Of a stretch of DNA of 15,171 nucleotides, positions 1,877 through 15,171 are shown one piece after another. The first letter of the stretch is position 1. Each line of letters begins with the position of its first letter. The notes beneath the pieces are model-generated. The model did no database searches. It saw only the letters and a list, made by a program, of their open reading frames with translations, and was not told the origin of the DNA. The stretch covers positions 1 through 15,171 of the forward strand of contig CACYEJ010000096.1 of the NCBI GenBank assembly GCA_902773395.1, given 5' to 3'. This DNA is from an uncultured Ruminococcus sp. (GTDB lineage: Bacteria; Bacillota_A; Clostridia; Oscillospirales; Acutalibacteraceae). Made by a program: the position numbers and the translations under genes.

Positions 1877-3433
1877 ATGAAGAGTAACAAAATGCTCCGA
1901 GGTCTACAGCACAAGACTGAAGCACCTTATCTGGGCGTTGTTGTTCCTGGAACAGATAAGGAGCCAGCTGTCACTATAGCTGTGCGTGGAGGTACGATCC
2001 GCTATCGTATCATTTCGTATTTGTTGCAAGACATCGACGCAATAACTTGGGAAGGAAATTTAGAGCAAGATGTGTTAGATGATGTGGAAGCATGGGTTCA
2101 CGCCAATCTTCCCATGCTACTTGCGGAGGCGCAACTTCATCATATCATTAAGTTCGACAAAAAATCCAAGTGCTATTATGACTTTCAATCACATACCCTA
2201 TACGAGGCAAATGGATATTACGAAAAAAAAGGAAGTACGGCGGGCGGTTTAAAAAATGCAGCAGCTATTAACGGCAAACCAATAAAGATTCCCAATAGTG
2301 CTGTACCATTTATTGAAAAACTGACAAAACACCCTGGCGTAGGTTTTGAAACCGAGAGTTTTATTGATGAAGCTGTTTACGCCGATGACGACGATGAGGC
2401 TATTGTGAGAGCCAAAAATAATCTTTCTCAAGCATTCTATAAATTCTTAAGATATGACTCATCTATCAAGGACAAGTTTATTAAAGAAAATACAGGAGAC
2501 AGAAAGTTTATATATCTAGGTGAACCACAAGAGTGGTTTGTTGGTGAAAAAATCCAAAATGAGATTCTCACAGTAAAGATGATTTATGATGCAGTTTCTC
2601 AACACGAGATCCTAACGATATGTGATTCGGCAAGGGGAATGCCAACTAATATAGTTTTATCTAAAAATATTACAGCAAAGGAATCCTTAGCTTTTATAGG
2701 CATTGATACAGATTTGTTCGACAATAGATTGATTGACATCAAACAATTCTTTGAAACCAACTATTTTGAGACAGCCGAATTCCTCAAATCCTTACTATCT
2801 AGGTATTGCGTTGTGTTAGATGCAGTATGGGCGCAAATAGCAAAAAATATTAAGAATAACTTTTTACATAGTTTAAGTGCCTCAACATATTTTATCGACA
2901 CAGAAGAAATACCGAATCATCAGTCGGATTATCTGAAAACGTATCCCCTAAATGAGGATCGTCTTGGGATTATCCTAAAACGAATCTATCCTTCTGTAAT
3001 TAAACTTTTCAAAGACTTTGGGTTTGAAGATGATTTTTTCAAAAATTGCGATCTTAAAATAGCATCAGAAGATGGGGGCGTTGATATTAATAAGGCAATC
3101 GACGGCATCGTAGCTTTGCTTCTGATTTGCTTATATTGCGGTCAAACAGCTTGTGTTGATGAAGAACTTAATCGTTTGAAGAAACGGTATCACGGTGAAT
3201 TGCTTAGGCTTATTCACGAAAAGTTTAATTTCATTCCACCTAGTGGTAGCAGAGACAGCCTGTTTGAAGCCTTGCAAATAGGTTTACAAGACTTATTAGC
3301 ACTTCATGGACAGTTATTAAGCGAAGGACAAAATGCAAAGGCGTCGGTAATTGAGAAATTCTTTGATGATTTAAAACTCAGTTATAATGACGAGAATAGT
3401 TTGCTTCCGCCATCAATGGGCAGGGAGCTTTAA
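1877..3433 (+). CDS. Unknown 518-aa protein, first gene of the VirD4-like operon
   Basis: I do not recognise the family. The N-terminal ~90 residues alternate beta-like stretches (VTIAVRGGTIRYRIISYLL) with an amphipathic helix (VEAWVHANLPMLLAEAQLHH). Residues ~100-170 include short polar or aromatic strands, and ~170-518 are mainly predicted helical, with a charged C-terminal third. Leu/Ile/Cys-rich IDGIVALLLICLYCGQ near 415 could be a buried helix; it is too short and isolated to call a membrane protein. There is no signal peptide and no nucleotide-binding motif. AAGAAGGA at 1858-1865 precedes the ATG. The stop is followed within 10 bases by the VirD4-like gene, whose ribosome site overlaps this stop, so the two are probably made together. 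A partner or adaptor of the ATPase is the simplest inference. Confidence 0.85.
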   Translation: MKSNKMLRGLQHKTEAPYLGVVVPGTDKEPAVTIAVRGGTIRYRIISYLLQDIDAITWEGNLEQDVLDDVEAWVHANLPMLLAEAQLHHIIKFDKKSKCYYDFQSHTLYEANGYYEKKGSTAGGLKNAAAINGKPIKIPNSAVPFIEKLTKHPGVGFETESFIDEAVYADDDDEAIVRAKNNLSQAFYKFLRYDSSIKDKFIKENTGDRKFIYLGEPQEWFVGEKIQNEILTVKMIYDAVSQHEILTICDSARGMPTNIVLSKNITAKESLAFIGIDTDLFDNRLIDIKQFFETNYFETAEFLKSLLSRYCVVLDAVWAQIAKNIKNNFLHSLSASTYFIDTEEIPNHQSDYLKTYPLNEDRLGIILKRIYPSVIKLFKDFGFEDDFFKNCDLKIASEDGGVDINKAIDGIVALLLICLYCGQTACVDEELNRLKKRYHGELLRLIHEKFNFIPPSGSRDSLFEALQIGLQDLLALHGQLLSEGQNAKASVIEKFFDDLKLSYNDENSLLPPSMGREL

Positions 3434-3443
3434 GGAGCAGTAT

Positions 3444-5207
3444 ATGATTAGTTCAAACAACCCAAATCTATCACGGCCAGAAGTGTTGTTTCAGGAGTTT
3501 GCCCATCTTGATATAAACACTCACCATTTCTCGGGCAAGAAATCCTTTGATGGTCAAATCGGGGGCTTCCCGCTTTTGTACAACAAGGAGAAACAGCAGC
3601 TAGCTGTAGATGCCACTGACAGTCACACACTTGTCGTTGGCGCATCCGGTAGCAAAAAAACTCGCGCTCTTGTTCTGCCAGCCATCAAGGTTTTAGGTTA
3701 TGCCAGCGAGAGCATGATTATCAATGATCCGAAAGGTGAGCTTTATAACCGCACAGCAGGAGAGCTCCGCGACTTGGGATACAGCATTATTACTGTCAAC
3801 TTGCGTGACCCCTCGGTGGGACACGCATGGAACCCGCTCCAGATACCTTATAGTTACTATAAGGCTGGGGATATGGATAAGGCTGCAGAGTTTGCCAACG
3901 ACATTGCAAACACACTCATACTTGGTGAGATTGCGACTGACGATCCATTCTGGGGCTACTCGGCATATGACTGTTGCTTGGGTCTCATCATGCTTCTTTT
4001 TAAGCTTTGTAAAGAAATGGATTATCCCGACAACGCTGTGAACATCTCAAATCTTTTGCGGCTTAGACGGAAACTGTTTGAGAACGGAGTAAACGCAAAA
4101 AACTCCCCCCTTTGGAAATGGGCAAGCAAAGACGAGTTGATTGCAGCAAGCTTGACGGGAAGCGTTATGACTGCCCAAGATACTATGCGCGGAATTCTTG
4201 CGACCCTTGATCAAAAACTAAGGGCGTTGGCAATACAACCTTCTTTGTTGGAAATGCTAGCTAACTCAAACTTTGATATTGAGGAGATTGGACAGAGCAA
4301 AACAGCGGTTTATCTTATTACTCCGGACGAAAAGACGACCTATTCCTCGATTGTTGCGATGTTTATTTCGCAGAGCTATCAACATCTGATTTATTCTGCC
4401 ACACAAAGTGGCGGACGTTTGGGGATTCGTGTTAACTATATTCTTGATGAGTTTAGCAGCCTTCCCGCCATCGGTAGTGACTTCCCAAGCATGATTTCTG
4501 CTGCAAGATCAAGGAATATACGCTATCTCATTTGTATACAGTCGAAATCACAATTAGTAAAGCGATACAAAGAAGAAGCGGCAACTATCATATCGAATTG
4601 CACAAACTGGGTCGTCTTGTTTACACGAGAACTGGAGCTTCTTCGAGAAGTGTCTGAGTTGTGTGGTCAAAAGAAAGATCGGACGCCAAATGTTTCAGTT
4701 TATGATTTACAACATTTGTCGAAGGATAAGGATGAAGCCCTTTTACTGGCAGGGAAATCAAAACCGTGTCTTGTTAATCTGCTAGATATTGATCGTTTTG
4801 GGGAACGAAGTTACAAAGTTATCGATTTCTATACACCGGAAAGACTTTTGAGATTCAATATTGATTTTTCGGAGCTGCCTGCAGAAGCTAAAGCAATTAT
4901 CGAAGAAGAACGAGCACGAATGTCCGCTTCTTTGAATCCTAGTTTCAACCCATTAAACAAGTCGAGTTCAAGCACTCCTCCTACAACAACTACTCCGCCT
5001 ATAGCAGGAACAAGCTCACCGGAGCAGCAGTTGAATGTAGATGATCTTGTTGCAAAGATAGATAAACGGATTGCTGAGCTGGAAGAGGAAGAACGGAGAG
5101 AAACAAAAATAACAAACACATTTAAACTTAGCCATGTGGTTGATACAATAAAGGACCGCCGTGATGAATTATTTCAAGCCAGCGCAACTGATTCGACCGA
5201 AGAATAA
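3444..5207 (+). CDS. VirD4/TraG-like coupling-type ATPase, soluble form, 587 aa
   Basis: This is a member of the VirD4/TraG (type IV coupling protein) branch of the HerA/FtsK ATPases, which pump DNA or protein through hexameric rings. Visible landmarks are Walker A GASGSKKT (residues 66-73), IINDPKGELY (92-101), NPLQIPY (130-136), the SKTAVYLITPDEKTTYSSI segment (285-303), Walker B YILDEFSSLPAI (332-343) and ISAARSRNIRYLICIQS (351-367). Residues ~492-530 are a Ser/Thr/Pro-rich linker, followed by an acidic helix that may form a coiled coil. Two things are odd. The usual third glycine of Walker A is Lys (K71). There are no N-terminal membrane helices, which most coupling proteins have. The ATG at 3444 follows AAGGAG by 6 bases; a longer frame from 3387 would overlap the upstream gene and lacks a ribosome site. 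No relaxase, VirB4 or pilus gene is nearby, so conjugation is not supported here. Confidence 0.92.
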   Translation: MISSNNPNLSRPEVLFQEFAHLDINTHHFSGKKSFDGQIGGFPLLYNKEKQQLAVDATDSHTLVVGASGSKKTRALVLPAIKVLGYASESMIINDPKGELYNRTAGELRDLGYSIITVNLRDPSVGHAWNPLQIPYSYYKAGDMDKAAEFANDIANTLILGEIATDDPFWGYSAYDCCLGLIMLLFKLCKEMDYPDNAVNISNLLRLRRKLFENGVNAKNSPLWKWASKDELIAASLTGSVMTAQDTMRGILATLDQKLRALAIQPSLLEMLANSNFDIEEIGQSKTAVYLITPDEKTTYSSIVAMFISQSYQHLIYSATQSGGRLGIRVNYILDEFSSLPAIGSDFPSMISAARSRNIRYLICIQSKSQLVKRYKEEAATIISNCTNWVVLFTRELELLREVSELCGQKKDRTPNVSVYDLQHLSKDKDEALLLAGKSKPCLVNLLDIDRFGERSYKVIDFYTPERLLRFNIDFSELPAEAKAIIEEERARMSASLNPSFNPLNKSSSSTPPTTTTPPIAGTSSPEQQLNVDDLVAKIDKRIAELEEEERRETKITNTFKLSHVVDTIKDRRDELFQASATDSTEE

Positions 5208-8810: not shown

Positions 8811-9302
8811 ATGAACGCATTTGATTTCTTTATAGAAAAGGCCAACTCCATAGAGGTTGATTGTTATGCTGGGGGCTATATCAGTATTGATATTATTTTG
8901 GAACGTGACAGCTATGGAAGAACAAATCGCGCAATCGCTATCTCAAAAGATGAGAAAGGCTTGATTGAGGCGAGTTGTTATGAAGATTGGGGCGGAGATG
9001 GACAAGGGGCTGCATCTATTCTGGATGATGAGTTGCAGGCATTAATAGAATTTGTCCCTGCTTTTAAGTCCGGCCAGGATCAGATAAGTCAAATCGTTTC
9101 ATTGTTGTCATCGTCCGTGAATGACGCGTATAAAATGATTATTGCGATGTCTTCCATTGAATTAATAGGGAATTATGGGACTTATGATCAATACTCGTGC
9201 ATTGTTTTTAGAAACCAGAGTCTACGCTTTGAGGGTTCAGTACCGGAGCAGTTGAAAACAGAACTGCGGAAAATTGCAAACCTGATTTGGGAAAAGGAAT
9301 AA
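8811..9302 (+). CDS. Hypothetical protein, 163 aa
   Basis: Not recognised. The N-terminal half reads as beta strands (AGGYISIDIILERD; IEASCYEDWGGDGQGAAS) and the second half as helix (QISQIVSLLSSSVNDAYKMIIAM) followed by strand and a C-terminal amphipathic helix. The DWGGDGQG segment (about residues 60-67) is a conspicuous glycine-rich turn. There is no signal peptide or membrane segment. AAGGGAG precedes the ATG with good spacing. The next gene follows after 27 bases, so the two are probably co-transcribed. Size and acidic character would fit a small immunity or adaptor protein, but nothing in the sequence shows that. Confidence 0.82.
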   Translation: MNAFDFFIEKANSIEVDCYAGGYISIDIILERDSYGRTNRAIAISKDEKGLIEASCYEDWGGDGQGAASILDDELQALIEFVPAFKSGQDQISQIVSLLSSSVNDAYKMIIAMSSIELIGNYGTYDQYSCIVFRNQSLRFEGSVPEQLKTELRKIANLIWEKE

Positions 9303-9329
9303 TACCCTTGCGTGTTTGGAGGTCGGGAA

Positions 9330-10490
9330 ATGGGTCGTGATTCTTTAATAGGTTTGAAGCTTCGTTTTGGCAAGTATAATTGGAAAATAATTAATTGGGA
9401 AGCCAATGGCTGCATGCTTCTATGTGACGTTTTGGATGGGAACCAATTCTTCAGACAAGCATGGGATAGCTCATACCGTCTTGATGTTGGAGAAGACGTT
9501 GCTTGGTCGAAGTGTGAATTACACGATTGGCTGAATGATGATTTTATGAAGCATGCATTTTCCGAAGAAGAATCGGCTTGTATCGTCAATGAACCTTGCC
9601 GCATCGGTGATTTTTCAACCGATCAAGTGGGCGTTTTTCTCCTTCCGAGGAGCGAACTGATAAAGTATACCAATATTCATGTTGATCATTGTTGGACATT
9701 GGATGCAGACGTATGGGATTATGACGAAGAAGCAGTTACAAACGAAAAATATGTCCAGCCGGTGATTTGGATTGATTTTGCTTTGATAGACAGCTTAATC
9801 CCCGGATGGAAGGATCTGGCTGCCGTCTTGGCGTATTCTGACGATGGCGATTTTGGTATTCCAAGCCCAGTGCTATTCTATAAAGAGCTAACCGATGATT
9901 ATAATCTTGCTATTGGCTATCTTATGAAAATGCTCGAATGCGTATCAAAAAACGCTCGGAAATACTATTATGAACAGATTTATGAGATACTGTATGTCAT
10001 GGCGAGAAACGATGATGCGGCTTCAATAAACAGAGTGTTTGAATTGTGCCCGGATTTGGAACCGGAAGGCTATTACTCGTATGATCAGATGTTGCCGCTA
10101 GGCGAGGCAATTGAAAAAGAAGCATACGGAGCAATTAGCGCTCTTGTCAACAATGGATGCAACATCGATTGTGCATCCATGGATACACACACAACAATCC
10201 ATTTTGCGTCATCAGATAAGATGGTTTTGTTTCTGATTGAGAGAGGCGTGACCGTTGAGTTTTCTGACATTATGGATATTTGGGTTTGGGCAAAAAACTT
10301 CGAGTTAGCTAAGAAAGTAATCCAAATGACAGCATCATCGAATATTCAACAATACATAGATTGTGCAAGGCACTATTACGAAGATACATCCATATATTGT
10401 TACGGCGGTCTTGAAGAGAAAGAGAGGCAAGCCTTTAATAATATGATTGCTTATTTTGCTGAGATAAAAAACGCTCTTGATTGTGAATAA
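9330..10490 (+). CDS. DUF6273 domain protein with C-terminal ankyrin-like repeats, 386 aa
   Basis: Residues ~10-150 match the DUF6273 pattern: W-K-I-I-N-W then MLLCDVL, WSKCELHDWLNDDFMKHAFSEEE (about 59-81, key W59, L64, W67, L68, F79), and a VGVFLLPRSEL strand near 100-110. This domain resembles the fold of formylglycine-generating/sulfatase-modifying proteins and is common in Firmicutes surface or accessory proteins; its biochemical role is not settled as far as I know. Residues ~250-335 look like degenerate ankyrin repeats (LGEAIEKEAYGAISALVNNG; DKMVLFLIERG). There is no signal peptide, so it is probably cytoplasmic. The ATG at 9330 is chosen because GGAGG sits 7 bases before it; an upstream in-frame GTG at 9312 would precede that site. 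It closely follows the 163-aa gene. Confidence 0.85.
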   Translation: MGRDSLIGLKLRFGKYNWKIINWEANGCMLLCDVLDGNQFFRQAWDSSYRLDVGEDVAWSKCELHDWLNDDFMKHAFSEEESACIVNEPCRIGDFSTDQVGVFLLPRSELIKYTNIHVDHCWTLDADVWDYDEEAVTNEKYVQPVIWIDFALIDSLIPGWKDLAAVLAYSDDGDFGIPSPVLFYKELTDDYNLAIGYLMKMLECVSKNARKYYYEQIYEILYVMARNDDAASINRVFELCPDLEPEGYYSYDQMLPLGEAIEKEAYGAISALVNNGCNIDCASMDTHTTIHFASSDKMVLFLIERGVTVEFSDIMDIWVWAKNFELAKKVIQMTASSNIQQYIDCARHYYEDTSIYCYGGLEEKERQAFNNMIAYFAEIKNALDCE

Positions 10491-11269: not shown

Positions 11270-11386
11270 ATGAATGAAGACTTACTACCAGAATATGATT
11301 GTCGTATATCAAGAAGAATAATCTTACATGAAAAATACTACATAGCAATGAGGAGGATACGATACAATGAAAACTGTTCACGGTAA
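11270..11386 (+). CDS. Possible 38-aa small ORF between ASCH and rtcB
   Basis: An ATG lies 4 bases after the ASCH stop and opens a 38-codon frame ending 20 bases inside rtcB. The peptide begins MNEDLLPEYDCRI and then becomes Arg/Tyr-rich. The L-P-E-Y-D start is reminiscent of small BrnA-like or DUF antitoxin N-termini, so this may be a decayed remnant or a coupling leader peptide. There is no ribosome site before its ATG; the rtcB ribosome site lies inside it. This is a weak call. Confidence 0.25.
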   Translation: MNEDLLPEYDCRISRRIILHEKYYIAMRRIRYNENCSR

Positions 11387-12581
11387 TTACGCAGACGCCC
11401 TGATATTCACCGATGTAGTGGAGGAAACTGCTTTAGAACAGGTAAAGACCTTATGTGATCAGCCTTTTGTAAAAGGGCGTCGTATCCGCTTGATGCCCGA
11501 CATCCATGCGGGTGCAGGATGCACCATCGGTTTTACCGCTGACTTGGGCGATATGGTCATTCCGAACATCGTAGGTGTCGATATAGGCTGTGGGATGCTG
11601 ACAGTCGAATTAGGAAAATCCGAGCCTGATTATGTCCTTCTGGATGAAATTATCCGTCAGAGTATTCCTTCCGGAATGAATGTTCACAATACTCCGGTAG
11701 CCGACTTTCCGAATCTTCATGAGCTGTATTGCTTTGACGACCTAATCCATAAGCAGCGACTTGAATGTAGTATCGGAACCCTTGGCGGTGGCAATCATTT
11801 TATCGAAGTGGATAAGGATAATAATGACTGTTTTTATCTGGTGATCCACACCGGCAGCCGCAACCTCGGTAAGCAAGTCGCTGAGATCTATCAAAATATC
11901 GCTGTCGAAGAACGCAAGGGCGTATTTGACCTTAGAGTCAGGACAGAGGAAATCATCCGTGAATACAAGGCGACAGGTCGCATGAGTGAGATTCAGTCGG
12001 CATTGCAGACTCTGCGTCAAACGCCCGGTGCTGTACCGCCTCCCAAGGAACTGTGCTATGTCACCGGTGAGAACCGTATGAAGTATCTGCACGATATGAA
12101 GCTCTGTCAGGAGTTCGCTGTGTTGAACAGAAAGACAATCGCTAACCGCATCCTCTCGGCGCTCTATGGCAAAGGACTGGATGATTTTGCTCACTTTGAG
12201 ACGATCCATAACTATATTGATCATGAGTCAAATATCATCCGGAAAGGTGCTGTATCCGCTCAGGAGGGTGAGCGTCTGCTGATTCCGATCAATATGCGTG
12301 ATGGAAGCTTGATCTGCGTCGGCAAAGGCAACCCCGACTGGAACTATTCCGCTCCGCACGGAGCCGGAAGATTGTTTAGCCGAGCTGCGGCAAGGGAGAA
12401 CTTCTCTCTCGATGATTACCGCAAGGAGATGGAAGGAATCTATTCAACCTCCGTAGTCGATGAAACACTCGATGAGTGCCCAATGGCGTACAAGCCGATG
12501 GAAAGCATTGTTAAGAACATAGCACCGACAGCTGAAATTATCATGGTTATCAAGCCGACCTTTAACTATAAGGCTAATTAA
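11367..12581 (+). CDS. rtcB: RNA-splicing ligase RtcB, 404 aa
   Basis: RtcB joins RNA ends bearing 2',3'-cyclic phosphate or 3'-phosphate to a 5'-OH, using GTP and Mn2+, acting in tRNA/rRNA repair. The family motifs are all present: DIGCGM with metal-ligand Cys75, GGNHF with His144, HTGSR with His161, HNYIDHE with His281, and SAPHGAGR with His331, the position of the guanylated nucleophile in characterised RtcB. The length (404) matches the E. coli-type enzyme (about 408) rather than the longer archaeal type, and it appears intact. GAGGAGG precedes the ATG with about 11 bases of spacing. No rtcA or rtcR is visible. It follows the ASCH gene by 101 bases. Damage repair after an RNA-cutting toxin or phage attack is a plausible role in this setting, but it is inferred. 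Confidence 0.97.
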   Translation: MKTVHGNYADALIFTDVVEETALEQVKTLCDQPFVKGRRIRLMPDIHAGAGCTIGFTADLGDMVIPNIVGVDIGCGMLTVELGKSEPDYVLLDEIIRQSIPSGMNVHNTPVADFPNLHELYCFDDLIHKQRLECSIGTLGGGNHFIEVDKDNNDCFYLVIHTGSRNLGKQVAEIYQNIAVEERKGVFDLRVRTEEIIREYKATGRMSEIQSALQTLRQTPGAVPPPKELCYVTGENRMKYLHDMKLCQEFAVLNRKTIANRILSALYGKGLDDFAHFETIHNYIDHESNIIRKGAVSAQEGERLLIPINMRDGSLICVGKGNPDWNYSAPHGAGRLFSRAAARENFSLDDYRKEMEGIYSTSVVDETLDECPMAYKPMESIVKNIAPTAEIIMVIKPTFNYKAN

Positions 12582-12851: not shown

Positions 12852-13586
12852 ATGTCTACTCTTCATGGCAAATGGAGCGTTGAGGATATCCGCAAGGTTA
12901 TTCAGAGTCTTGACAAAAAAACGGGAATGAACGGGGCATCAATCCACATTAGTCTTTGTAAGACTTTGGGAAACGGGTCAACACTCGGAACATATCGCCC
13001 GAGTGATAATCACAGCTGGCGTAGTTTTTGTTTTTCTTTGGCTTATTTTAATGACTCAAATTTCAAAGATTTGGCAGCTATTGATGTTATCAGGCATGAG
13101 TACTGCCATTATTTGGTTGATGCATTGAATCTTAATGCCATATTTGATGACAGAGATGACCACGGAGTTGCTTGGAAGACGGTTTGTGGTCTTCTCAATA
13201 CCGACCAATATGGCACATATCGCGCATGGATTTTTTGTTTAGCTACTGATAAGACTCTCCAAAACGCGTTTATGTCCGACGATATTCCTCGCGTTGATAT
13301 TCTGGATCAAATCAACCGATGGGGACTTCAACTTCCTTCGATTAAAAGGCGCAATTATTTGGAGAAAGCTCTTATCAAAAAATTTACAAAGCTTCGTGTG
13401 TTTTCAGTTGACGATCAGATTGTTCATGGACGATTTGGAAAAGGTGTTGTTATGGACACAATGCCTTATGGAAATAAACAAATGCTTTATGTTATGTTTG
13501 AAGATAATATACCACGTTTTGTGCAAAACCGACAGGTATATAAAGTAATAAACGGTCAAATAAAGAAACCCCGTTTTAAGGCATAA
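12852..13586 (+). CDS. SprT-like zinc metallopeptidase with a UvrD/PcrA-tail-like C-terminal domain, 244 aa
   Basis: The N-terminal ~135 residues are a SprT-like peptidase. The zinc motif HEYCH (residues 82-86, HExxH with catalytic Glu83) is followed by the third ligand in DDHGVAWKTVC (His104), the usual SprT H-G-x-x-(F/W)-K pattern. SPRTN, the eukaryotic relative, cuts proteins crosslinked to DNA; bacterial SprT substrates are mostly unknown. Residues ~186-232 (VDDQIVHGRFGKGVVMDTMP, then MLYVMFEDN) resemble the C-terminal Tudor-like domain of PcrA/UvrD helicases (V-x-H-x-x-F-G-x-G-x-V), which binds RNA polymerase. The usual C-terminal zinc ribbon of SprT proteins is absent. The strong ribosome site GGAGGAG lies 4-6 bases before the ATG and is sequestered in a hairpin. 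A perfect terminator follows, so it is probably monocistronic. Confidence 0.87.
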   Translation: MSTLHGKWSVEDIRKVIQSLDKKTGMNGASIHISLCKTLGNGSTLGTYRPSDNHSWRSFCFSLAYFNDSNFKDLAAIDVIRHEYCHYLVDALNLNAIFDDRDDHGVAWKTVCGLLNTDQYGTYRAWIFCLATDKTLQNAFMSDDIPRVDILDQINRWGLQLPSIKRRNYLEKALIKKFTKLRVFSVDDQIVHGRFGKGVVMDTMPYGNKQMLYVMFEDNIPRFVQNRQVYKVINGQIKKPRFKA

Positions 13587-13967: not shown

Positions 13968-14582
13968 ATGAGCAAGTATGAATTCAAAGCAATCAATCTT
14001 ATCGCTGAGACCTTTGAGCAGCGTGATGTCAAATTCGACGTAATTAGTCATCACGGAAGCGAACAGCTTCTGGCCGGCTTTTCCGTTGACTGTGGTCCTA
14101 ACGTGATTATGCGCTTCATTAGCAGCGACAATGACAATGACGTAGCCGCTCGCATCTTCGGTTTGATCTCCAACATTCCCGAAAGAAAGAGAGCCCGTGT
14201 TATGGAAGCCTGCAATGTGCTCAATCACAAGATCCGTTACACAAAGTTCTACCTTGATACCGATGGTGACATCAACGTCGAGTATGACTTCCCCATGAGC
14301 ACCCCTGATGAAGGTATCGGTGAGATGGCATTCGAGATTCTCGTCCGAATGATGCAGATTCTTGATACAGAATACGGCATCTTTATGAAGGCACTCTACT
14401 CTGATGAAGACCTCAACATTCAGGAATACAGCATTTCAGCCGAACTGATACAGAATCTCCAGAGATTTCGCAAAATGATGGAGACACGAATGGCTGATGC
14501 AGATAACTCTGCTGATGAAGAAGCTGATGATTTCGAATTGGGTTTCGATTCGGTAGATTCTCCCAACGATATCGCATGCTAA
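13968..14582 (+). CDS. YbjN domain protein, 204 aa
   Basis: Residues ~5-145 fit the YbjN family, whose fold resembles type III secretion chaperones. Landmarks are the N-terminal helix (FKAINLIAETFEQRDVKFDV), the strand VIMRFISSDNDNDVAARIFG (about 46-65), IPERKRARVMEACNVLN (70-86), the strand pair KFYLDTDGDINVEYDF (94-109) and the long helix AFEILVRMMQILDTEYGIFM. The C-terminal ~40 residues are acidic and probably disordered (ADEE-, DDFEL-type). In enterobacteria YbjN is a stress/motility regulator; elsewhere its role is open. AAAGGATG precedes the ATG. It is followed after 115 bases by the ubiquitin-like repeat gene, and both share C-ending, highly-expressed-type codon use unlike the AT-rich genes upstream. 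A chaperone role for the neighbour is possible but inferred. Confidence 0.87.
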   Translation: MSKYEFKAINLIAETFEQRDVKFDVISHHGSEQLLAGFSVDCGPNVIMRFISSDNDNDVAARIFGLISNIPERKRARVMEACNVLNHKIRYTKFYLDTDGDINVEYDFPMSTPDEGIGEMAFEILVRMMQILDTEYGIFMKALYSDEDLNIQEYSISAELIQNLQRFRKMMETRMADADNSADEEADDFELGFDSVDSPNDIAC

Positions 14583-14632
14583 GTCCACAATATCTTCCCA
14601 CGTAAACGAGAGCCGGATGGTAATCAATCAAA

Positions 14633-14669: not shown

Positions 14670-14697
14670 ACCAATAATAACAAAGGAGATAAAAGCT

Positions 14698-15171
14698 ATG
14701 ACAAACTATCCTATTGACGGCGCTCTTGCCGCCACCGAAGGCACTTTTGAGATCGATCTGCTCAACAAGGTGACCGGTACAACGTATCCCCAAGCTGCCG
14801 TGTATGGCACTAACACCCTCGGACAGGTTCTCCAGGAGTATGCTGTTGACATTGGCGTGAATCCCAACGACAGCAAGATTCTCTTCGAGAACAAGCGTAC
14901 CGGCGCATCTACCAGCGACACAAACGAAACCGTTGAAGGCTTTGGTCTCCAAGAAGGCGATGTGCTGGCTATCAGTGACAACGCTGGTGTGGCCGCCGGA
15001 GAAGAGGCCTTTGAGATTGACCTCCTCAACAAGGTAACCGGAACGACCTATCCTCAGGCTGCCGTGTATGGCGCTAACACCCTCGGACAGGTTCTCCAGG
15101 AGTATGCTGTTGACATTGGCGTGAATCCCAACGACAGCAAGATCCTCTTCGAGAACAAGCGTACCGGCGCA
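14698..15171 (+). CDS. Tandem ubiquitin-like (beta-grasp) repeat protein, 3' end outside window
   Basis: The frame starts at an ATG 9 bases after AAAGGAG and stays open for 158 codons to the last base. After a short leader (residues 1-15) it encodes a domain of beta-grasp shape: strand FEIDLLNKVTG, hairpin strand TTYPQAAVYG, helix TLGQVLQEYAVDIG, strand DSKILFENKRTG, and the ubiquitin-like ending ETVEGFGLQEGDVLAIS (77-93). A linker DNAGVAAGEEA leads into a second copy that begins 88 residues after the first (E18 to E106) and is identical except T38A for the 53 residues visible. No signal peptide is seen. This resembles bacterial poly-ubiquitin-like proteins found near E1/E2/JAB genes; the linker has AAG but no Gly-Gly. 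YukD-type beta-grasp proteins are an alternative. The fold call is by pattern, not by a search. Confidence 0.85.
   Translation, partial: MTNYPIDGALAATEGTFEIDLLNKVTGTTYPQAAVYGTNTLGQVLQEYAVDIGVNPNDSKILFENKRTGASTSDTNETVEGFGLQEGDVLAISDNAGVAAGEEAFEIDLLNKVTGTTYPQAAVYGANTLGQVLQEYAVDIGVNPNDSKILFENKRTGA
14749..15171 (+). repeat. 264-bp tandem coding repeat inside the ubiquitin-like gene
   Basis: Unit 1 starts at 14749 and unit 2 at 15013, a period of 264 bases (88 codons). Over the 159 comparable bases (14749-14907 against 15013-15171) I count 11 differences. Nine fall in the first 45 bases and are all synonymous; the remaining 114 bases differ at only two positions (14809/15073, giving Thr to Ala, and 14880/15144, silent). 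Unit 2 is cut by the window end, and more units may follow. Confidence 0.9.

Follow-up and report, generated by a model that had tools for sequence, protein, structure and literature searches.

What does a gene for a tandem ubiquitin-like protein (Ubl) do in a gut bacterium, when the contig that carries it breaks off inside the gene? The question is raised by a stretch of 15,171 nucleotides (the window: contig CACYEJ010000096.1 of assembly GCA_902773395.1, uncultured Ruminococcus sp.), the last gene of which encodes repeated Ubl units. Tandem Ubls have been described since 2006, in the polyUbl operons of Table 1, row 6e, of Iyer, Burroughs and Aravind (PMC1779556). Here we propose that the product of this gene is probably a polyubiquitin-like precursor that supplies the tag for an operon of an E1-type activating enzyme, an E2-type conjugating enzyme and a JAB peptidase, carried on mobile elements of Oscillospiraceae-type gut bacteria. 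That a conjugation system is involved we regard as very likely; for its use in biological conflict we put the chances a little below even. Folds, motifs, gene order, mobile setting and tail conservation were computed directly.

At the DNA level the gene contains one direct-repeat family, two stretches of 191 nt (14717-14907 and 14981-15171) that are 88% identical and spaced by 264 nt, or 88 amino acids. This bears out the initial annotation, made from the letters of the window, of tandem 88-residue repeats running off its end: the 264-nt repeat is present in two copies, the second incomplete. Tandem Repeats Finder reports no row for it in the window, which holds fewer than two full copies. Counted from FEID, the 54 residues of copy 2 are 98.1% identical to copy 1, and the 54 common codons show 10 synonymous and 1 non-synonymous differences (dN 0.008, dS 0.33), the low dN relative to dS indicating a likeness maintained by selection rather than an assembly slip. 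In a 94%-identical relative, on an IMG/VR contig of 45,670 bp (G708, locus L001), two full units differ by 42 synonymous and 7 non-synonymous codons (dN 0.044; dS 2.7, near saturation), and the pattern in both loci points to purifying selection on both units. Close relatives of the gene have two units (L001) or three (P0002). The start at 14698 is backed by an AAAGGAG sequence ahead of it and by homologues beginning MTNYPI; an alternative upstream ATG at 14617 would give a longer frame.

One unit models as a ubiquitin/SUMO-type beta-grasp (predicted local distance difference test, pLDDT, 85.8), with an N-terminal helix followed by the strand-strand-helix-strand-strand order that had been read from the sequence at the outset. 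A search of 5.8 billion proteins found 186 homologues, and the counts given here rest on the 120 listed. By profile, and with fragments included, these contain one unit in 56 proteins, two in 55 and three in 9, separated by linkers of mostly 4-5 residues. Four separate single-unit Ubl genes with similar leaders stand in tandem at L025:5022-6521 (genome G1165), where there is no fused gene; the third ends early, without a Val-Ala tail. Pfam DUF2604 (PF10790) matches the window Ubl with E 0.016 (16 bits) and the L001 Ubl with E 7.4e-4 (20.3 bits), against a cut-off of 25 bits, and appears in the precomputed annotation of 6 of the 120 homologues. A match to LcrG (PF07216; 24.3 bits, cut-off 24.1), also annotated in several homologues, was rejected as a chance helix match, the model being a beta-grasp; the NCBIfam score for LcrG is 24.1 against a cut-off of 90.8. 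The Ubl has no match at E 1e-5 in annotated plasmid and phage collections, and further viral scans returned nothing beyond the IMG/VR contig. PADLOC gives no match for Ubl, E2 or JAB.

No Gly-Gly is found at the end of the unit. The boundary between units 1 and 2 reads ...SDNAGVA/AGEEAFEID...; the initial annotation was right that Gly-Gly is absent, while its 'AAG' gives way to a unit whose final residues are Val-Ala rather than some form of Gly-Gly. Among the 120 homologues, 92 end in -VA and 71 in -AGVA, and the ending is present in 49 of the 51 single-unit proteins of 95-105 amino acids. From 64 multi-unit proteins, 61 with a near-complete last unit were used and three dropped. Val-Ala stands at 65 of the 70 boundaries inside these proteins, where the next residue is A in 41 cases, G in 23 and S in 1, and at 42 of the 61 C-termini; five of the 19 terminal exceptions have Val-Ala and then an extension starting with A or G. 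In units less than 75% identical, Val-Ala is kept internally in 32 of 36 cases and terminally in 15 of 29. Conservation of internal tails, which are hidden unless the protein is cut, is thus no weaker than that of exposed ones, and this favours a cut after Val-Ala. Cleavage at this site is predicted with better than even confidence, and the tails favour a polyubiquitin-like precursor that would be conjugated through Ala, as are some cyclases of cyclic oligonucleotide-based antiphage signalling systems (CBASS). Odd, cap-like tails of the last unit (-CCP, -GGCP, -CGHFA) occur in P0003, P0004, P0007, P0031, P0045 and P0049.

The enzymes of the system are found in relatives. Besides L001, the loci compared are L002/L010 of G001 (an Oscillospiraceae metagenome-assembled genome, which supports the Firmicute host assigned initially), L025/L026 of G1165, L007 of G295 and L009 of G044. 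In G708 and three genomes of one family (G001, G1165 and G295), the Ubl gene is followed by genes for a zinc-type membrane protein, a ThiF-type E1, an E2 and a JAB peptidase; ThiF/E1, E2 and JAB genes had been foreseen past the end of the window, and these relatives carry them in that order, while the window itself stops inside the Ubl gene. The full order in G708 is Ubl x2, a 140-aa protein, E1, E2, JAB, a transglutaminase-like protein, an SPFH protein with a zinc ribbon, two small proteins, a HerA-like ATPase and a nuclease. The 140-aa protein has, by eye, a hydrophobic start, a proline-rich middle and C-terminal cysteines. Pfam matches in L001 are ThiF (E 3.8e-16; a single match, residues 20-252 of the 423 of E1), Transglut_core (3.7e-8), Band_7_1 (1.4e-16) and DUF87 (HerA; 1.4e-5). 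The E1 of relatives carries a conserved Cys (Cys183) and matches the E1-E2 models of PADLOC. The E2 adopts an E2 fold by modelling and has an active-site Cys121, in the spacing S-P-N-x7-Cys, that is invariant in 56 of 56 sequences. It is recognised by fold only: the L001 protein has no Pfam match up to E 0.5, and a sequence-only PDB search with the E2 profile returned no E2 (best E 0.12). The JAB motif is present in all five loci. A PDB search with a 3-row JAB profile gave nothing useful and one with a 5-row profile gave weak Rpn11 matches. The block from Ubl to an M50 peptidase is conserved in G001 and G1165, at 66-92% and 57-93% identity to G708, respectively. A P-[L/M/I]-P-x-R motif (PPPLPPR, PPPLPDR, PPPMPER, PLPPRNR) recurs in five of ten operon proteins in each of L001, L002 and L025, namely the zinc protein, E2, JAB, SPFH and TM183 proteins; in the three islands scanned it is absent from E1, transglutaminase, the small zinc-TM protein, HerA and the nuclease. 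It may be a shared docking tag.

These components can be set beside several known systems. As given in Table 1 (PMC1779556), the operons of row 6e likewise have 2-3 tandem Ubls with E1 and JAB in one neighbourhood and are mobile and sporadic, but are listed with an inactive E2/RWD-like protein and a JAB that is fused to E1 and sometimes replaced by another domain, in proteobacteria, actinobacteria and cyanobacteria. Here the hosts are Clostridia, the E2 retains its Cys, and JAB and E1 are encoded separately in all five loci; the Val-Ala end and the context of ClpP, HerA and nuclease are further differences from tandem Ubl operons. The Bil system (BilABCD), as outlined in a 2024 review (PMC11354881), shares all four activities, with a Ubl (tandem in BilA), an E1, an E2 and a JAB. 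In that outline BilD combines an inactive and an active adenylation domain, whereas the E1 here has one ThiF domain; BilB has a Cys-Glu-His-His arrangement (C, E +6, H +8, H +13), whereas C121 of L001 has P, T and T at these positions; and the Clostridial family differs by its S-P-N-x7-Cys E2, its 1-3 Ubl units and its Val-Ala unit end. We therefore describe the family as working like row 6e and Bil, and do not file it as a member of either. In type II CBASS, according to the account in PMC10097602, Cap2 and Cap3 act on the cyclase, which is conjugated through a C-terminal Gly or Ala, the isopeptidase Cap3 reversing the reaction; there the tag is the cyclase itself, whereas here it is a beta-grasp protein, and no CD-NTase/cyclase occurs among the genes scanned, which cover part of the open reading frames (ORFs). 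The FtsH-ternary systems with Ubl tri-ligase modules, as described in PMC7159879, also bring together Ubl, E1, E2 and JAB with ATPases and effectors in a predicted conflict role, but are characterized by Ubl-E2-EAD1 fusions and by vWA, MoxR, FtsH and caspase-like partners, none of which is among the genes scanned here. Three general features of ubiquitin-like conjugation are present, a beta-grasp modifier and, in relatives, an E1 Cys and an E2 Cys; an exchangeable nuclease domain is shared with polymorphic toxin systems. In the literature searched, nothing on the Clostridial family, on Val-Ala ends or on a ClpP link was recognised; the primary Bil and Bub papers lay outside its reach.

In G708, G001 and G1165 the run continues through transglutaminase, SPFH protein, HerA-like ATPase and WHH nuclease, and is followed by ClpP. 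The large ATPase matches the HerA, mad8 and DndH models of PADLOC; the L001 nuclease matches Colicin-DNase (PF12639, E 4.8e-11) and WHH (PF14414, E 3.4e-7), and its gene overlaps that of HerA. In L025 the nuclease gene is followed by a 17-pair terminator, a small ORF and then ClpP. This small conserved ORF (MKTFEEIMSIGN..., L025:16555-16757) lies in the nuclease-ClpP gap in G001 and G708 also, and possibly encodes an immunity protein. Beyond the nuclease, G708 has ClpP (PF00574, E 1.3e-64), a small ATPase-like protein, a second ATPase resembling type IV coupling proteins (T4CP) and an M50 peptidase. G295 conserves the genes from Ubl to JAB. Directly after JAB it has a different nuclease, which scores 27.4 bits for PF13930 (cut-off 27); genes for a TrwB-like ATPase and an M48 peptidase come next, and ClpP and a T4CP-like ATPase lie further along. 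ClpP is thus present in 4 of 4 close-family loci, the other three being 40-93% identical to that of G708, and is linked to the Ubl system by position only.

The setting is mobile. The G1165 island has a G+C of 0.45-0.60 in surroundings of 0.61-0.67 and looks like an integrative element; no flanking repeats were found, a single 14-mer direct repeat being judged a chance occurrence. A serine recombinase (PF00239) in two ORFs (L026:8451-9179 and 9257-9919) adjoins it, the second ORF, which was not scanned, overlapping a tRNA-Met at 9876-9951; an FtsK-like gene and a Rep-like gene (PF02407 just below cut-off) adjoin it as well. One flank of the G708 island carries phage-type replication genes (DNA polymerase A, an Enc34-type single-stranded DNA-binding protein and a D5-type primase), and with them an Eco29kI-type restriction-modification pair and an ABC-three-component (ABC-3C) gene (L020:3084-8203). 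In G295 two large STAND/AAA-type NTPase genes lie upstream of the Ubl operon (L007:14922-19962). Two nuclease Pfam families near the conjugation genes, the presence of HerA and the mobile setting point to a possible role in conflict. The WHH/Colicin-DNase and PF13930 nucleases, which we call different, not unrelated, may share one metal-finger superfamily, and for this reason our estimate of such a role was lowered from even to slightly less.

The system is rare and patchy. In overlapping genome samples, an E1 query (E 1e-20) found 3 of 300 genomes in the family of G001 (G001, G295 and G044) and 1 of 394 in the order (G001 itself); an E1 profile found 1 of 32 and 1 of 35 genomes in two genera, each the starting genome. 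The E2 profile found 1 of 391 genomes of the class (G001), 2 of 400 of the G295 family (G295 and G1165) and 1 of 398 of the phylum (G295). Indirect evidence places Ubl and E2 genes on the same contigs: between the 120 listed Ubl and 120 listed E2 proteins (64 and 82 distinct sizes), 14 longest-contig sizes of at least 4 kb coincide exactly, with 0.1 coincidences expected from jittered values.

How the units are used can be read in other ways. The tandem protein might remain uncut between its units and be conjugated whole through the last C-terminus, as an ISG15- or BilA-like tag: BilA is a tandem two-domain Ubl according to the 2024 review (PMC11354881), ISG15 chains are among the best VIA matches, and the linkers are short. 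We consider this unlikely, since 51 of the 120 listed homologues are single-unit proteins of 95-105 amino acids and 49 of those end at the same residues, L025 has four separate single-unit genes, and internal tails are conserved at least as well as terminal ones, the opposite of what an uncut tag predicts. Several observations weigh against the precursor that we favour. The internal and terminal frequencies of Val-Ala differ with a Fisher p of 0.0005, which rises to 0.013 when extended tails are counted as kept (terminal 47/61, internal 65/70), and the paired internal-versus-terminal comparison gives 12 versus 3 (p 0.035); all these values are optimistic, as the sequences share ancestry. Among the 49 VA-ending single-unit proteins, 45 have Gly at position -3, which leaves room for trimming of the last Val-Ala by JAB to give a tag ending ...Asn-Ala-Gly, much as BilC exposes Gly in BilA in the same review. 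This too has a low probability, about that of the uncut tag: Gly at -3 gives way to I, V, N or D in four of the 49, while Val-Ala is the more constant ending, and the A or G that follows internal Val-Ala in 64 of 65 cases points to a cut after it. Further, the window contains no conjugation enzyme, all of them being known from relatives, and the predicted JAB is recognised mainly by motif (PF14464, Prok-JAB, E 0.062 in L001, far below cut-off), with no assignable catalytic Glu.

A ThiF-superfamily E1 and a HerA/FtsK-type ATPase downstream would also suit a sulfur carrier (ThiS/MoaD type) or a secretion accessory (YukD type) that modifies no protein. This is very improbable: the same gene run encodes a JAB and a protein that has both the E2 fold and an E2-type active site, and no thiamine, molybdopterin or WXG100 gene is among the proteins scanned. 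The link to YukD and type VII systems raised in the initial annotation, and an adhesin considered as an alternative to it, were dropped for want of a supporting gene or motif, the protein having by eye neither LPxTG nor an evident signal sequence. A more serious competitor, which we rate as appreciable though short of even, is that the conjugation operon is element cargo or housekeeping and travels with genes unrelated to it (nuclease, HerA, ClpP and the T4CP-like ATPases), which might serve, for instance, in transfer or stability. Conjugative elements typically carry T4CP-like genes, and ClpP, HerA and nuclease might be neighbours for other reasons. In G044 a distant E1-E2-JAB run (L009:9757-12553; 27%, 22% and 25% identity) has metabolic genes for neighbours, and the locus yielded no relative of HerA, ClpP or the WHH nuclease. 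Against mere passage stand the nuclease directly after JAB (G295) or closing the run before the terminator (G1165), the two Pfam families to which these nucleases belong, and the constant presence of ClpP in the close family. After JAB in G044 there is also an 89-aa protein ending in GDVA, with two listed homologues; hhalign finds no real similarity to the Ubl, and it stays a candidate Ubl only.

For the precursor that we favour, the following steps can be proposed. The JAB peptidase would cut after Val-Ala, freeing units that end in -Gly-Val-Ala. From its family and conservation, the ThiF-type E1 would adenylate the C-terminal Ala and load the unit onto its own Cys183, from which it would pass to Cys121 of the E2 and then to a substrate; the zinc-type membrane protein, whose gene lies between those for Ubl and E1, perhaps positions this transfer. 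JAB may also strip the tag from substrates. In the weakest step, the tag would control or target a nuclease effector against phages or rival elements; because the gene run ends with the HerA-like ATPase and nuclease, with ClpP next, control or targeting of the nuclease is the likeliest use. A more specific version, a ubiquitin-ClpP conflict system, is speculative and rather improbable as a whole: after the JAB cut, E1 and the eukaryote-like E2 would ligate units through the C-terminal alanine, the tag would direct either a nuclease effector bound to HerA or the inhibitor of that effector to the dedicated ClpP, and infection or a rival element would switch the nuclease on.

Features of the window are listed in the table below. 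The genes upstream of the Ubl that are common to the window and G708 (T4CP-like, tetratricopeptide repeat, SprT-like, YbjN and others) are 71-91% identical. The YbjN and SprT-like neighbours pointed out initially lie upstream of the Ubl in the window and, as relatives of the window proteins, likewise in L001 and L025; L002 and L007 yielded neither. An RtcB-type RNA ligase (PF01139, E 7.5e-61) is encoded at 11367-12581, upstream of the Ubl, and was not found in the other loci compared. The window has no Rfam match and no tRNA match.

Table. Positions of the tandem Ubl gene, its parts and neighbouring genes in the window.
Feature	Position	Strand	Evidence or remark
VirD4/TraG-type ATPase	3387..5207	+	PF02534, E 2.4e-34; relatives in L001 (91%) and L002 (48%)
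SprT-like protein	12852..13586	+	PF10263, E 0.0015, below cut-off; HExxH by eye
YbjN-family protein	13968..14582	+	PF10722, E 6e-8; upstream neighbour also in L001 and L025
Ribosome-binding-like site AAAGGAG ahead of the ATG at 14698	14682..14688	+	by eye
Tandem ubiquitin-like precursor gene (putative)	14698..15171	+	runs off the window; start MTNYPIDGALAATEG
Ubl unit 1 (FEIDLLNK...DNAGVA)	14746..14994	+	modelled beta-grasp
Predicted processing site Val-Ala/Ala, unit 1/unit 2	14989..14997	+	homologue boundaries
Ubl unit 2, incomplete (54 residues up to the end of the window)	15010..15171	+	

If this reading is correct, mobile ubiquitin-like systems of some gut Clostridia combine many eukaryote-type parts: a multi-unit precursor, an E1, an S-P-N-x7-Cys E2 and a JAB deconjugase, with a compartmental protease close by. 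Two testable questions follow, whether bacterial Ubls other than CBASS cyclases are conjugated through alanine, and whether bacterial Ubl tags feed the ClpP protease. The occurrence of one, two and three fused units, and of four separate genes, would then illustrate how a polyubiquitin gene originates.
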